This document shows positions 2,169-24,773 of a stretch of DNA of 64,000 nt, one piece after another. Numbering within the stretch: the first letter of the stretch is position 1; every line of letters begins with the position of its first letter. A program made the translations under genes and the position numbers. Source of the DNA: a virus; the IMG/VR virus record IMGVR_UViG_3300025674_000016, positions 1-64,000 of that record; one strand, given 5' to 3'. Under the pieces are notes generated by a model. It made no database searches. It saw nothing but the letters and a program-made list of their open reading frames with translations, and was not told the origin of the DNA.

Positions 2169-3661
2169 AAATTACAAAGACTGAATTAAAATCAATAATT
2201 TCAGAAGAGATGTCTTATGAGATCTTAGAACAAAGATTGGATTTATTAAACGAGGATCTTCGTTATATAAATAATAAAAAATTACTAAAGGAAGGTTTTT
2301 TAGACGCTGCGCAAGGTGTCTTGGACCTAGTTGGGCTAATACCTGGCGCTGGTGAGATTGCAGATGCTATTAATGGTGTGGTCTCTTTATTGAGGGCTCT
2401 TGTGGAGTCAGAAGGTAAATTTGAAAACGTATTAAATGCAATTTTTTCTTTTATATCAATGGTGCCAGCAATAGGAGATGCAGTTGGAAAAGGTGGCAAA
2501 CTTGGCATTTATTTTATAAAAATTTTAGATAAATTTCCCCAACTTAAAAAAGCGGGAGACTTAATTAATGCTGCAAAGAGCAATAAAAAATTAATGTTTG
2601 TTGTCACTAACGCTAAAAAGTTTTTCTCTGATCATGGTGACAAAGTAGTAGGTGTAGTGAAAGCTTTGCAAGAAAAAGATGTTGATTCTATCTATAGAAT
2701 TTTTAATATTAAAAAAATTAAAAATGAAAGAGTTCAACAAAAGATAGACCTCTTATTTGAACAAGGTCTAGAGGGCATCAGTGAAAGAATGCAGGGATTA
2801 GATACCGATTCTTTAACCAGTGCTATTGAAGTTCTTAATGGTTTAAATTTGCAAACAAATGAATCTATAAATAACCATAGTAATTCAATTACTAAATCAA
2901 AATTAAGACAAATTATTCGTGAAGAGTTAAATAAGCAACTCCATAAAGAAGGTATTTTTGATACACTTAAAGGCGCTTTTGGGGGCAAGAAAAGCACCAC
3001 TGGCGACTTGGATTTAGAAGCCAATGGGGACTTGGGTTCAAAGCTGGAAGAGAAAGAGAAAGAATTTAAAGCAGCAGGGACTATAGAAAAAGGAAGCCTA
3101 CGACAACCGTTTATAGATCTTGTTAATCAAGCCTTAGAAAGTAGTGATCCGGTCGCCAAAGAAAAGGCAAACGAAATAAAGAAAAAATATCGCTCTCTTT
3201 TTATAGATCCTGAGCCTTTCGATGGAAACTTGAGTTTATATTCAGGCAAAGATTTGAGTAGACAAGGTTTTAAAGGTAAAGACCTCAGAAATGTGAACTT
3301 TTCAAAATCCGATTTGCAAAATGCAAATTTTGAAAATGCTATTTTTTCTATTGACCCTGCTTTGGGTAAAGAAAATTACATTTTTTCTGGGAGTGACATT
3401 ACTGGGGCCAACTTCAAAGGTATAAGAATATATGTCCAAGGTTTAGATCAAAGTTGGCCAAAAGATGGAAAGCTCCCTTACACAGAGGAAGGTGAAGGAT
3501 ATATAGAGCGCCCAGAAGGAAACCTGCACGGCAGTCGCTACCGTCCGCGTGCTATGAGAGACTCTGACAGGAAAGCGCGGGCAGAGCACATGGAACTTTT
3601 CAAAAAGTATTTCAAAATGCTAACTAAAGGCTCGATCATAAAAGGGTATCCAAAATTTTAA
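2165..3661 (+). CDS. Putative packaged protein: two targeting peptides, hydrophobic domain, pentapeptide repeats
   Basis: A 498-residue protein with a GTG start, overlapping the previous stop, and GGAGG seven bases upstream. Residues 1-16 (MKITKTELKSIISEEM) match the N-terminal signature repeated in this region. LLKEGFLDAAQ follows, then a hydrophobic stretch (LDLVGLIPGAGEIADAI, ISMVPAIGDAVGKG) of the kind that precedes toxin domains or inserts in membranes. A second copy of the signature, ITKSKLRQIIREELNK, occurs near residues 242-257, again followed by KEGIFDTL. The C-terminal third has pentapeptide-like repeats (DLSRQGFKGKDLRNVNFSKS, DLQNANFENA). The layout suggests two once-separate capsid-targeted proteins fused in frame. 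The function is unknown. Confidence 0.75.
   Translation: MKITKTELKSIISEEMSYEILEQRLDLLNEDLRYINNKKLLKEGFLDAAQGVLDLVGLIPGAGEIADAINGVVSLLRALVESEGKFENVLNAIFSFISMVPAIGDAVGKGGKLGIYFIKILDKFPQLKKAGDLINAAKSNKKLMFVVTNAKKFFSDHGDKVVGVVKALQEKDVDSIYRIFNIKKIKNERVQQKIDLLFEQGLEGISERMQGLDTDSLTSAIEVLNGLNLQTNESINNHSNSITKSKLRQIIREELNKQLHKEGIFDTLKGAFGGKKSTTGDLDLEANGDLGSKLEEKEKEFKAAGTIEKGSLRQPFIDLVNQALESSDPVAKEKANEIKKKYRSLFIDPEPFDGNLSLYSGKDLSRQGFKGKDLRNVNFSKSDLQNANFENAIFSIDPALGKENYIFSGSDITGANFKGIRIYVQGLDQSWPKDGKLPYTEEGEGYIERPEGNLHGSRYRPRAMRDSDRKARAEHMELFKKYFKMLTKGSIIKGYPKF
2891..2935 (+). repeat. 45-bp repeat encoding a targeting peptide, copy 1
   Basis: This segment inside the 498-residue gene encodes TKSKLRQIIREELNK and matches 3729-3773 at 42 of 45 bases. 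The match at DNA level, including synonymous positions, indicates a recent duplication, not just protein-level convergence. Confidence 0.8.
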
Positions 3662-12496: not shown

Positions 12497-12560
12497 TGAT
12501 TTTAAACCCCTATTGACTATTTATTGTGAACGTTTAAACGATCAAAGGAGAACTTAACAA

Positions 12561-12986
12561 ATGAGTCAACAAAACACAAACAAAATTTTTAATCAATTAT
12601 TTTTACTTGAAAACCTTACCGCTGACACTACACTTGACGAGTTTAGTACCGGAAAGATTTATTCTCTCAACCCTACTGGCGCGATGGTTATCACACTACC
12701 AACCCCAGTAGCAGGCTGGAACGCTAGATTTGTTGTTGAGACAACCTCTCAAACGATTACACTATCGGGGAGCGCCGATGGTAACATCGTTGGTTTAATT
12801 TTTGGTACTGATGGTGGTGCCGGAAGCTCCAAAGACCTCGGCACCTTCGGTAATGATGCTGCGACTTCTGTGAAGACAAATTCTACTGAGTCTTTCCTTA
12901 GCGATAATCTTGAGATTGTCAGTACTGATTCCACGTTTGTTGTTATGGGTAGAGCTTCTAGCTCTGCTGGTTTTGTATTTGAATGA
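12561..12986 (+). CDS. Probable virion surface or structural beta protein
   Basis: A 141-residue protein rich in Thr, Ser, Gly and Val and lacking Cys. It has alternating strands (GAMVITLPTPVAGWNARFVV, TITLSGSADGNIVGLIFGTD) typical of small beta-sandwich virion proteins such as decoration or fibre-tip proteins. AAGGAG precedes the ATG at good spacing. It stands alone between the packaged-protein genes and the hairpin at 12993-13050. The assignment is by composition only. Confidence 0.55.
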   Translation: MSQQNTNKIFNQLFLLENLTADTTLDEFSTGKIYSLNPTGAMVITLPTPVAGWNARFVVETTSQTITLSGSADGNIVGLIFGTDGGAGSSKDLGTFGNDAATSVKTNSTESFLSDNLEIVSTDSTFVVMGRASSSAGFVFE

Positions 12987-12992
12987 TTTAGC

Positions 12993-13050
12993 TTTTTAAC
13001 CTTTCTATTCATTTCTGGTATAATATACCTCACACTAGAAAGGTTAAAAA
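12993..13050 (+). promoter_or_regulatory. 15-bp perfect inverted repeat that would hide the 2OG-oxygenase ribosome site
   Basis: TTTTTAACCTTTCTA (12993-13007) and TAGAAAGGTTAAAAA (13036-13050) are perfect complements separated by 28 bases. The right arm contains the GAAAGG ribosome site and ends one base before the ATG at 13051, so an RNA that includes both arms would sequester the start site. The spacer contains an extended -10 promoter (13016-13024), so an RNA begun there lacks the left arm and would be freely translated. T4 genes e, soc and I-TevI use this arrangement to silence readthrough transcripts. Confidence 0.7.
13016..13024 (+). promoter_or_regulatory. Extended -10 promoter inside the hairpin loop
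   Basis: TGGTATAAT is a consensus extended -10 element (TG-n-TATAAT). No good -35 is seen upstream, which extended -10 promoters do not need. The start of transcription would be near 13031, between the two hairpin arms. Confidence 0.6.
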
Positions 13051-13452
13051 ATGATTATCGGAACACCACACCAACCTTGGGAACTTCTCGACACCACAGC
13101 AGAAGACTTCCTCCTACAAATGCTAAAATACGGAAAACCTATTGAAACCTCGCTTGTTGGCTCATTTGATCAATCGGGGCGAGGCTCAAGAAGGGATATT
13201 CCGCTCCCATTTCATCGAGATGGCGACTACTCAAAAGAAAAAGCTTCAAAAAACAGCATAGATGTTGTCGGCCTCTTCTGTATTAGGGGCGGAGAAGCCA
13301 ATACCCTCATTAAATACAACGATAAAATAACATCATACAACCTCAAGAAAGGTCAAGGTATTATTTTTGATAATAAAGAAGTCCTACACGCCAGAGAAGG
13401 CGAGGTAGGAGACAGATTATTGCTTAGAGTGTGGGTCGAGAGGCAAAAATGA
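13051..13452 (+). CDS. Compact 2-oxoglutarate/Fe(II) oxygenase-like protein
   Basis: A 133-residue protein with the facial-triad pattern of 2OG-Fe(II) enzymes: His55 and Asp57 in PFHRDGDYS, His113 in EVLHAREGE, and a following Arg (122 or 126, in DRLLLRVW) that could bind the 2OG carboxylate. Strands between them (VVGLFCIRGGEANTLI, LKKGQGIIFDN) fit the double-stranded beta-helix. At this length it is close to the minimum for the fold. The substrate is unknown; options include protein, nucleic acid or a small metabolite. Expression is probably controlled by the hairpin/promoter just upstream. Confidence 0.7.
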   Translation: MIIGTPHQPWELLDTTAEDFLLQMLKYGKPIETSLVGSFDQSGRGSRRDIPLPFHRDGDYSKEKASKNSIDVVGLFCIRGGEANTLIKYNDKITSYNLKKGQGIIFDNKEVLHAREGEVGDRLLLRVWVERQK

Positions 13453-13772
13453 GCCTAGACCAAGAAAAAGCTAACAAAGTATGGAAGTACCTAGTTTTTT
13501 CTTTGTGTATCCTTAGTATTTTAGACTTACAGTTCACAATCTACGAGCTAGAGCTAGGAATAGCCTATGAATACAACATATTCTTAGCTAACGTGCTTCA
13601 TTTAGGCTATTTGCCTTTTATTCTAACAAAAACCAACATAACTTTAGCTTCTTGTGTTATATTATTAGCAGGAATAGACAAGATCTTTGCTAAAATAGGT
13701 GTTTTAGCTTGTAATCTTATTTATTTCTTTATTTTTGTTTATCATATCATCGGAATTGCAATCTACTCATAA
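13449..13772 (+). CDS. Small multi-pass membrane protein
   Basis: A 107-residue protein starting at the ATG that overlaps the oxygenase stop (MSLDQEKANKVWKYLVF). Three to four hydrophobic helices follow (YLVFSLCILSILDLQF, GYLPFILTKTNITLASCVIL, VLACNLIYFFIFVYHIIGIA). It resembles DUF5658-type small membrane proteins in outline, but this is weak. Coupling to the oxygenase suggests co-expression. Confidence 0.6.
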   Translation: MSLDQEKANKVWKYLVFSLCILSILDLQFTIYELELGIAYEYNIFLANVLHLGYLPFILTKTNITLASCVILLAGIDKIFAKIGVLACNLIYFFIFVYHIIGIAIYS

Positions 13773-13786
13773 CAAAGGAAGGAAAA

Positions 13787-14776
13787 ATGATTGTAGACGT
13801 TATCGTAGACTTACAGTATGGCGATTGTGGCAAGGGAAAAGTAACTCATCACCTCTGCAAGAAGGGTAAATACACCCATGTTGTTAGATATAACGGTGGA
13901 TGTAATGCGGGACACACAATTTATCACGAAGGAAGGAAGTTTGTAACCCATCACATCCCTGCTGGCGTCTTTTTTGGCGTTAAATCGGTCATTGGACCTG
14001 GTTGTGTTGTTAATGTTGATCGTTTTTTCGAAGAAATGGACATGTTAAGGGATGGAGGCATCCCCTATCTTGAAGATTTAGTTAAAATTGCTAAGAATGC
14101 ACACATTATTACAGACGAACATGTTAACTCAGACTCATCTGACACTAGTATTGGCACCACAAAGCGTGGTAATGGTCCTGCATATGCCGCTAAGTACGCC
14201 AGAACAGGGGTCAGGGCAGAAGATGTAAGAGAATTACAGCCTTATTTGGTTGATTTCTTTGAAGAAATGCATCAAAAGGACACTATTGCCCTGTTTGAAG
14301 GCGCTCAGGGCTTTGGTTTGGACGTTGATTGGGGTGATTACCCTTATGTTACCTCCTCTCACTGCACTGTTGCAGGTGCAATGCTCAATGGCATACCTCC
14401 AAAAGCCATTAGAAACGTTTGGGGAGTGGCAAAGTGCTATGAAACATACGTTGGAGCAAAGGATTTCGGTGGTGATGACCCTATTTTCGACACAATCTGC
14501 GAATTAGGACAAGAATATGGCGCTACAACGGGTAGAAAGCGCCAAGTTAACTGGATGGAGTGGGAATTACTCGAAAAAGCGGTTAAAATCAACGGTGTAA
14601 CCCATTTGGTGGTCAATAAAATGGATATTTTAAGCGAAATACAGCGTTGGAGCCTGTTTTGCAACAAAATTAAGCATAGTTTCCCCTCAGAGCAGTCATT
14701 TAAGACATATTTTGAAGAAAAGTTAGGAGAAACAGGCATTTCCATCTATTTTTCTGGTGATAAGGGTCGTATTTAG
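13787..14776 (+). CDS. purA: Adenylosuccinate synthetase (short phage/archaeal-type)
   Basis: A 329-residue enzyme. The family joins IMP and aspartate using GTP to make adenylosuccinate, the first step from IMP to AMP. The GTP loop QYGDCGKGK holds the catalytic Asp13. NAGHT, GTTKRGNGPAYA, FEGAQG, DYPYVTSSH and GATTGRKRQ are all present. It is about 100 residues shorter than bacterial PurA (around 430), like archaeal and viral forms. Phage PurZ, which makes 2-aminoadenine precursors, replaces this Asp with Ser or Gly. Its retention favours PurA activity on IMP or the PurZ0-like intermediate clade. GGAAGGAAAAA precedes the ATG. It probably raises adenine nucleotide supply during infection. Confidence 0.88.
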   Translation: MIVDVIVDLQYGDCGKGKVTHHLCKKGKYTHVVRYNGGCNAGHTIYHEGRKFVTHHIPAGVFFGVKSVIGPGCVVNVDRFFEEMDMLRDGGIPYLEDLVKIAKNAHIITDEHVNSDSSDTSIGTTKRGNGPAYAAKYARTGVRAEDVRELQPYLVDFFEEMHQKDTIALFEGAQGFGLDVDWGDYPYVTSSHCTVAGAMLNGIPPKAIRNVWGVAKCYETYVGAKDFGGDDPIFDTICELGQEYGATTGRKRQVNWMEWELLEKAVKINGVTHLVVNKMDILSEIQRWSLFCNKIKHSFPSEQSFKTYFEEKLGETGISIYFSGDKGRI

Positions 14777-18797: not shown

Positions 18798-19101
18798 GGG
18801 GGTGACTTGGTATCGACTGGGTACGGAATTAGTTCTTGCAAGGAAGTTTGAGCAAACTTTAAAAAGTTCAACCATTTTAATTGACGAAAGCCAATTCGAA
18901 TACGCAATGGCCGCTTGAGGTCTTGCTGGGGTGGCAACAGCCCTATTATCCAAAGTTGCGAAAATAAAGGTTCGTTTACTTTCCTTTTCCAAAAGTAAAC
19001 AATCGTTTACTTTGCTTGTTGGAGCACTAAACCAACTAACCTTGTGAATGAAAGAACAAAGTGAAGTATTTAGGACGCGGGTTCGAATCCCGCCTCCTCC
19101 A
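18798..19101 (+). ncRNA. ssrA: tmRNA (ssrA), one-piece
   Basis: tmRNA rescues stalled ribosomes and tags the nascent peptide for proteolysis. The 5' end GGGGGTGACTTGGTATCGAC matches the conserved tRNA-like start (D-loop portion). The 3' end GGACGCGGGTTCGAATCCCG then CCTCCTCCA gives a perfect T-arm and an acceptor strand pairing with GGGGGTG, with one U-U mismatch. CCA is not encoded. The tag frame ends ...DESQFEYAMAA followed by TGA at 18916-18918. The resume codon cannot be fixed by eye. AAGTTTgagcAAACTT is a visible helix. The length of 304 bases fits the one-piece form. Its last base abuts the stop of the convergent protease gene. Confidence 0.93.
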
Positions 19102-23433: not shown

Positions 23434-23462
23434 TTGAAAATCCAAAATAAGTGTGCTATATT
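23434..23462 (+). promoter_or_regulatory. Strong sigma-70-type promoter of the sugar operon
   Basis: TTGAAA (23434-23439), 17 bases, TATATT (23457-23462). The -35 region is part of ATTTGAAAATC, which is repeated 39 bases downstream in the leader at 23472-23482. The gap 23430-23495 is the only real break between the nuclease and the 11-kb glycan operon, so this is its likely start. Confidence 0.7.
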
Positions 23463-23495
23463 TTTCATATTATTTGAAAATCTAAAGGTACACTT

Positions 23496-24773
23496 ATGAG
23501 CGAAACCAATTCAAAAAAAATTAAAATACTCACCCTTTCTGATCACCCACTCAGCCCTTCTGGAGTTGGCACACAGACAAAATATATGATCGAAGGTCTT
23601 TTAAAGACTGGTGATTATGAAGTTGTGTCTCTAGGTGGCGCTGTAAAGCATCAAAACTACCAGCCAATGAAAACTGAAGAGTGGGGAGATGCCTGGACCA
23701 TTTATCCTGTTGATGGATATGGAACCCAAGATGTTATCCGTTCTGTGATAAGAAGCGAGAAGCCAGATATACTGTGGATGATGACTGATCCAAGATTTTG
23801 GCAGTGGCTGTGGCAAATGGAGGATGAAATCCGACCACTAGTGCCAATTGTCTATTATCATGTTTGGGATAATTATCCGCCACCCAAATACAACAAACCA
23901 GCATATGATTGTAATGATACAATTGTAACAATTTCTAGATTAACAAATGAAATTGTAAATGCAGTCACAGATGTTCCCGATGTAGTTCACCATCCTCACG
24001 CAGTGAATACGGATATATTTAAAAAGTTGAACCCTGAAGATGTAAAAACTTTTAGAGAGAACAGTTTTGAGGGTGGAGAGAAAAATCCAAACAGAATGGT
24101 TTTCTTTTGGAACAACAGGAATGCAAGAAGAAAACAAAGTGGCACTTTAATTTACTGGTTTAAGGAGTTTTTAGATAAGGTTGGTTATGATAATGCTTGT
24201 CTGATAATGCACACCGACCCCAAAGATCAACATGGTCAAGACTTGGAACATATCATAACTGAATTGGGCCTCCACAACGGACAAGTTATGATATCTAGAA
24301 ATAAGATTCCACCAGAAGGTTTAGCCATGCTCTATAACATGGCTGATTGCACAATTAACATTTCAGACGCAGAAGGATTCGGACTAGCCACTCTTGAATC
24401 TTTAGCCTGTGAGACCCCTATTATCGTAAATATGACTGGCGGCTTGCAAGAACAAGTGACCAATGGTGAGGACTGGTTTGGAATCGGAATCGAGCCTTGC
24501 TCTAAGGCAATTATCGGGTCTCAGGAAATTCCATACATCTATGAAGACCGCTTAAATAAAGAGCAGTTCTTAGAGTCTATTGAGAAATTCTATAATCTTA
24601 CAAAAGAGCAAAGAGAGGAGCTAGGTCAAAAAGGTAGAGAGCATGTTCTAAAGAACTATGATTTTGTCAACTACCAAGAAGGTTGGGACAAGATTATGAA
24701 GGACGTTCACCAGAAACACGGTTCTTGGGATAGTAGAAAGGGCTACGATACCTGGAGGCACGAGGAACTATGA
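23496..24773 (+). CDS. Glycosyltransferase, GT4-like (GT-B fold)
   Basis: A 425-residue protein. LTLSDHPLSPSGVGTQTKYM is the N-terminal acceptor-side loop. The C-terminal domain contains MVFFWNNRNARRK, ADCTINISDAEGFGLATLES and ACETPIIVNMTGG, the usual E-x7-E sugar-nucleotide region of GT4 retaining enzymes. It is the first gene of the glycan operon, coupled by ATGA to a second GT4-like gene. The sugar and acceptor are unknown. Confidence 0.85.
   Translation: MSETNSKKIKILTLSDHPLSPSGVGTQTKYMIEGLLKTGDYEVVSLGGAVKHQNYQPMKTEEWGDAWTIYPVDGYGTQDVIRSVIRSEKPDILWMMTDPRFWQWLWQMEDEIRPLVPIVYYHVWDNYPPPKYNKPAYDCNDTIVTISRLTNEIVNAVTDVPDVVHHPHAVNTDIFKKLNPEDVKTFRENSFEGGEKNPNRMVFFWNNRNARRKQSGTLIYWFKEFLDKVGYDNACLIMHTDPKDQHGQDLEHIITELGLHNGQVMISRNKIPPEGLAMLYNMADCTINISDAEGFGLATLESLACETPIIVNMTGGLQEQVTNGEDWFGIGIEPCSKAIIGSQEIPYIYEDRLNKEQFLESIEKFYNLTKEQREELGQKGREHVLKNYDFVNYQEGWDKIMKDVHQKHGSWDSRKGYDTWRHEEL

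Follow-up and report, generated by a model that had tools for sequence, protein, structure and literature searches.

An early-type promoter inside an RNA hairpin over the ribosome site of a marine phage gene: a proposed translational insulator against late read-through

Introduction

Phage T4 restricts the translation of some of its genes to transcripts that begin at a nearby promoter. In the T4 genes e, soc, 49, and I-TevI, the SD sequence and/or the start codon is sequestered in RNA initiated upstream, early and middle read-through is silenced, and expression comes from a local late promoter, TATAAATA (PMC3014915, PMC2988022). The T4 genes under such hairpin control are all late genes (PMC2988022). 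A 58-bp element of a marine phage, in which a promoter lies between two complementary arms and the downstream arm covers the ribosome site of the gene at 13051, raises the question of which transcripts of this gene can be translated, and whether the timing of this control is that of T4 or another one.

Materials and methods

The source is a marine phage record of 155,702 bases. The window, that is, the whole stretch of DNA analysed here, is 64,000 nt long and is part of that record. In the stem scan, the longest perfect stem covering the SD zone was taken for each of 180 gene starts; the first SD scan left out the DNA polymerase gene, with its start set at TTG 131975 and a 75-nt limit. Chance expectation for stems was obtained by keeping the SD region fixed and shuffling the upstream sequence, over 2114 genome equivalents. 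Promoters for the recurrence analysis were selected by a fixed rule (score of at least 10, outside long ORFs, an SD-preceded gene at most 60 nt away), which picks 8 promoters. In the duplex test, the 100 nt preceding the start were compared with the SD region of the gene.

Results

A predicted hairpin covers the ribosome site of gene 13051

The element consists of the following features.

12993-13007, + strand: left arm of the hairpin, TTTTTAACCTTTCTA, the anti-SD strand in read-through RNA, including the weak -35 TTAACC
13016-13024, + strand: extended -10 TGGTATAAT in the hairpin loop, with TACCTCA one base further on, a feature it shares with the groEL promoter
13031-13032, + strand: predicted transcription start (C/A), 7-8 nt past the -10, placed by promoter geometry
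13036-13050, + strand: right arm of the hairpin, TAGAAAGGTTAAAAA, including the SD GAAAGG (13038-13043)

The arms are 28 nt apart and 100% complementary over 15 bp, the SD lies 7 nt upstream of ATG 13051, and the right arm directly abuts that codon. The preliminary description of this DNA had reported a perfect 15-bp inverted repeat over this ribosome site, with an extended -10 in the spacer between the arms, and we verified both, including the coordinates, the arms, the SD, and TGGTATAAT at its position. Of all perfect inverted repeats in the 155,702-base record with loops up to 60 nt, this one is the longest, and its stem is the longest SD-covering stem among the 180 gene starts. Since SD-covering stems of at least 15 bp occurred only once in the 2114 shuffled genome equivalents (~5e-4 per genome), the stem is beyond chance expectation; stems of at least 12 bp occurred 39 times. 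When the DNA of 12900-13100 was searched against the record, the only matches were to the stretch itself, in direct and in reverse-complement orientation, and the arms are thus single-copy. The minus strand of the near-palindrome at 12993-13050 shows a promoter match as well, a weaker one (TTAACC-16-TATTAT, 9/12), from which RNA antisense to gene 12561 could be made.

The predicted fold of the read-through RNA has a free energy of -20.5 kcal/mol (z = -4.2 vs shuffles), and in a separate fold test of the 180 gene starts the lowest z belonged to 126082 (-5.2), followed by 13051 (-4.6). In read-through RNAs of 68-945 nt the core stem is predicted to pair with a probability of ~1 and the SD to be fully paired. 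For RNA starting at 13031, no structure comparable to the read-through stem is predicted; the SD would be free because the left arm is absent, and weak pairing with AACCTT near 13073, within the coding region, would still be possible. These predicted folds support the earlier suggestion that the SD is sequestered in read-through RNA and free in RNA begun near 13031. Predicted stability is higher in the cold, being -27.6 kcal/mol at 15 C vs -18.5 kcal/mol at 37 C for a near-identical stretch. A ribosome terminating at 12984-12986 would, by its footprint, mask part of the left arm. Removal of the outer 6 bp of the stem leaves 9 bp and -12 kcal/mol, and removal of 8 leaves 7 bp and -8.2 kcal/mol; with 7-9 bp left under a terminating ribosome the gate could partly open, and it may therefore be leaky while 12561 is translated.

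Genes around the hairpin

The hairpin lies between the following features.

12516-12523, + strand: late-type motif ACTATTTA, an enriched 8-mer, upstream of the 12561 gene
12561-12986, + strand: 141-aa ORF without functional assignment, the putative source of late read-through
13051-13452, + strand: ORF of the gated gene, 133 aa, possibly a 2OG/Fe(II) oxygenase (weak, sub-threshold TauD match)
13449-13772, + strand: 107-aa DUF5658 protein (Pfam DUF5658, 8.4e-10), in ATGA overlap with the 13051 stop
13787-14776, + strand: adenylosuccinate synthetase gene (Pfam, 3.3e-81), with its own open SD AAGGAAGG

The 12561 gene, whose product had no family match in our searches, has its stop codon 6 nt short of the hairpin, and no clear intrinsic terminator was found between 12516 and the hairpin. 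The gated gene had been labelled 2OG-oxygenase-like. In favor of this label, its product has HRD and a distal H/R, only these being in the expected order, and one TauD match; against it, that match is below threshold (E 0.0044, 17.4 bits vs a cut-off of 27) and the structure model has a pLDDT of 37. Searches of PDB, PHROG, viral, and genome sequences found no relatives of the product, and we keep the oxygenase assignment as a weak one. The 13449 gene is probably translationally coupled to 13051, as the overlap of the two reading frames suggests. Directly upstream of the adenylosuccinate synthetase gene there is no late motif, and this gene probably depends for its RNA on late read-through as well as on the early start. 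Elsewhere in the window, 18798-19101 (+ strand) encodes a phage tmRNA with the tag peptide DESQFEYAMAA (ARAGORN, Rfam RF00023).

The loop promoter matches the early-type class

Two classes of promoter motif are found in the record. The 8-mer ACTATTTA is the most enriched upstream 8-mer (9 seen vs 0.38 expected), lies 30-45 nt before start codons, and ranks first by enrichment in the related records G006 and G014 too. It precedes the endolysin (1098), tail sheath (96529), and tail tube (99543) genes as well as 12561, and we call it late-type because the endolysin, tail sheath, and tail tube genes stand behind it. The other class, which we label early-type, comprises CTTGACA-17-TATAAT promoters upstream of the DNA polymerase III alpha, groEL, and 5'-3' exonuclease genes.

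The -35 of the loop promoter, TTAACC (12996-13001), is weak and falls within the left arm; with a 17-bp spacer the promoter has 10/12 matches, and it is without ACTATTTA. Its start region, TATAAT-A-TACCTC, resembles that of the groEL promoter, TATATT-G-TACCTCA, with equal spacing, and on this likeness of sequence it belongs to the early sigma70-like class and not to the late class.

Other elements of possible relevance to transcription were noted. The 78-aa product of record 136519-136755 (L059), encoded directly upstream of a late-type promoter, contains a sigma-70 region 4 domain (Pfam 5.1e-8) and is a candidate late transcription factor. A repeated element, GTGAATAA ... CTGTCTAAG, occurs near tRNA and small genes in L060 at record ~148938, 151392, 153161, 153700, 153911, 154207, and 154557; its flanking arms vary by copy and are mostly still complementary (for example, ACCTCT/AGAGGT, CCAGCCTC/GAGGCTGG, CCTCAC/GTGAGG), and it may represent either an RNA element or a further, third class of promoter. 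At L034 10526 and L035 9707, the bases after the -10 of a TTGACA-TATAAT promoter, AATAACCAC, pair with a downstream GTGGTTATTTTTTT, and read-through RNA there would resemble a terminator.

Recurrence at other promoters of the phage

The top three SD-covering stems of the 180 genes, 15 bp at 13051, 12 bp at 126082, and 9 bp at 120279, are all among the 8 promoters picked by the rule, and at each an early-type promoter has its predicted start between the arms or at the arm edge. The left arm at 126082 covers the -10 plus the bases up to the start; that at 120279 falls in the interval between -10 and start, and its arms end approximately at the predicted start. Gene 120279 is directly behind the late-motif gene 119926, as 13051 is behind 12561. 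One further possible case lies in the window.

23434-23498, + strand: TTGAAA-17-TATATT promoter with arms ATAAGTGT/ACACTTAT, where an inner stem also surrounds the SD of the glycosyltransferase gene 23496

The duplex test was significant for 13051 (p 0.002), 23496 (p 0.005), 138118 (p 0.007), and the DNA polymerase gene 131990 (p 0.012), for which ATG 131990 is preferable to TTG 131975 as the start. It was near-significant for 126082 (p 0.06) and not significant for 120279 (p 0.56), 122708, 126396, and groEL. For the six TTGAC-type promoters, with 13051 and 23496 left out, the combined Fisher p for excess complementarity between upstream sequence and SD was 0.0017, in a test that was drawn up with the first cases already known and that covers few promoters. 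No such excess was found at ten late promoters of the phage (p 0.65) or at ~119 sigma70-like promoters in related records, and the latter result indicates a design that does not extend to the whole clade. The strongly pairing promoter matches 110068 and 111713 lie in coding sequence, are probably false, and were excluded.

Related records

The exact arms pattern of the 13051 element had 0 matches in IMG/VR viral contigs. A looser arms-TATAAT-arms pattern gave 18, which, once read, did not resemble this element. Homologues of 12561 and 13051 were found neither in viral contigs nor in 29 related records, and none of 13051 in phage records or genome contigs; with no orthologue of the element found, covariation offers no evidence on the stem. 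The near relative L095, whose DNA polymerase is 97% identical to that of the phage, has neither the 126082 gene nor its hairpin promoter and joins record 126023 to 126320. Record 126024-126319 (L059), with the 77-aa gene and the hairpin promoter, is thus a presence/absence cassette between two CTTGACA promoters. L095 also has ~1.05 kb extra at 2335-3388 (vs record position 125080) inside the ribonucleotide reductase gene, possibly an intron or intein. In L096 and L098, the DNA polymerase promoter lies between short complementary arms (ACTCCT/AGGAGT and CCGTTTGT/ACAAACGG; not significant, p 0.08 and 0.11).

Discussion

In this study, the arms, the promoter match, the two classes of promoter motif, the predicted folding, and the recurrence at other early promoters are read from the sequence, and taken together they lead us to think, with rather better than even confidence, that the 58-bp element is an early promoter inside an RNA hairpin that serves as a translational insulator. 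Early in infection, host sigma70 polymerase would start at ~13031 and make RNA without the left arm, in which the SD would be free and 13051 would be translated. Late RNA from 12516, running through gene 12561, would carry both arms; the left arm would lock the SD, 13051 would go untranslated, and coupling would reduce expression of the overlapping 13449 gene as well. The adenylosuccinate synthetase gene could still be expressed from late read-through by way of its own SD. Expression of 13051 would in this manner be confined to the early period despite its position right behind a late gene. The start site, the activity and timing of the promoter, the read-through, the translational block, and the benefit to the phage are what we infer from these sequence features.

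The comparison with T4 e, soc, and I-TevI made in the preliminary description stands for the anatomy and fails for the timing. As in the T4 hairpins, the SD of read-through RNA lies within the 3' arm and the predicted start lies between the arms, so that RNA from the element's own promoter would be without the 5' arm. Unlike in T4, the local promoter is early-type, with TATAAT, a groEL-like TACCTC and no ACTATTTA, and the nearest upstream promoter motif, at 12516, is late-type, a distant early promoter being possible. Because the loop promoter is early sigma70-like and not late, the element is a mirror image of the T4 switch; neither of the two timing features of the T4 class is found, and it is therefore T4-like in its working and not a member of that class. 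Transposase genes of the IS10/IS50 type are protected in a related way, with external transcripts folding over the ribosome site and RNA from the internal promoter not doing so. By analogy, the proposed insulation of 13051 against outside transcription would follow the same logic, in a phage temporal setting and at a locus without transposase or transposon ends. A promoter combined with an inverted repeat before phage genes also recalls the promoter stem-loops (PeSLs) of T4-type phages, with similar motifs in the haloarchaeal virus HGTV-1 (Arbiol et al. 2010, cited in PMC3950731). As far as PeSLs are described there, the 13051 element is like them in having an early-type promoter with an intergenic stem-loop, and the absence of the 126082 gene and its hairpin promoter from the near relative is like a shuffled PeSL cassette. 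By the same account, it differs in that the arms here vary from gene to gene, each fitting its own SD, and, unlike a mobile PeSL cassette, the 13051 element has no homologous copies in the record.

Several other explanations were weighed. A true T4-type late switch, in which transcription from the loop would be late and the read-through kept silent would be early RNA, would suit the anatomy shared with e, soc, and I-TevI; however, the loop promoter has TATAAT with a -35 and a groEL-like TACCTC, is without ACTATTTA, and the late motif belongs to the upstream gene 12561, and we regard such a switch as quite unlikely. The arms might instead act at the DNA level, as operator half-sites or two repressor sites that block the promoter or loop over it. 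The left arm does overlap the -35, the right arm falls at ~+5 to +19, and the arms are ~four helical turns apart; yet the arm sequences are absent elsewhere in the record, and the association with the SD across genes whose arm sequences differ suits base pairing over a protein site, making DNA-level control improbable, if not to be dismissed.

The position of the hairpin, beginning 6 nt past the 12561 stop codon, would also fit a hairpin at the 3' end of late 12561 mRNA, either a stabiliser or a terminator, with an incidental overlap of the SD. This we hold to be very unlikely, as no T-run follows the stem (A5-ATG does), the T5 is on the wrong side, and the element is absent from the terminator scan; an intrinsic terminator was accordingly rejected, the stem being followed by ATGATTATCGG. 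There is, finally, little probability in our view that the repeat arose by chance or by recent template switching and has no regulatory role. The lack of an orthologue in IMG/VR viral contigs agrees with such an origin, whereas the frequency of ~5e-4 per genome by shuffling and the recurrence at other early promoters speak against it.

Beyond the proposed insulator at 13051, recurrence raises a wider proposal, namely a genome-wide rule by which early promoters carry, upstream of the start, a strand able to pair with the SD of their own gene, late transcripts being translationally blind there. We find this rule doubtful as yet and treat it as a lead because the recurrence test was post hoc and small. 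If it is true, temporal insulation would be coded in promoter DNA, the inverse of the T4 late-gene hairpins. Other phages can be searched by a simple criterion, complementarity of a gene's SD to the DNA immediately before its transcription start. Known phage hairpins of this kind prevent the early synthesis of late proteins; if the mirror case works as proposed, phages would also bar early proteins from late synthesis with the same cheap device, and this would explain how early genes can lie within late transcription units.
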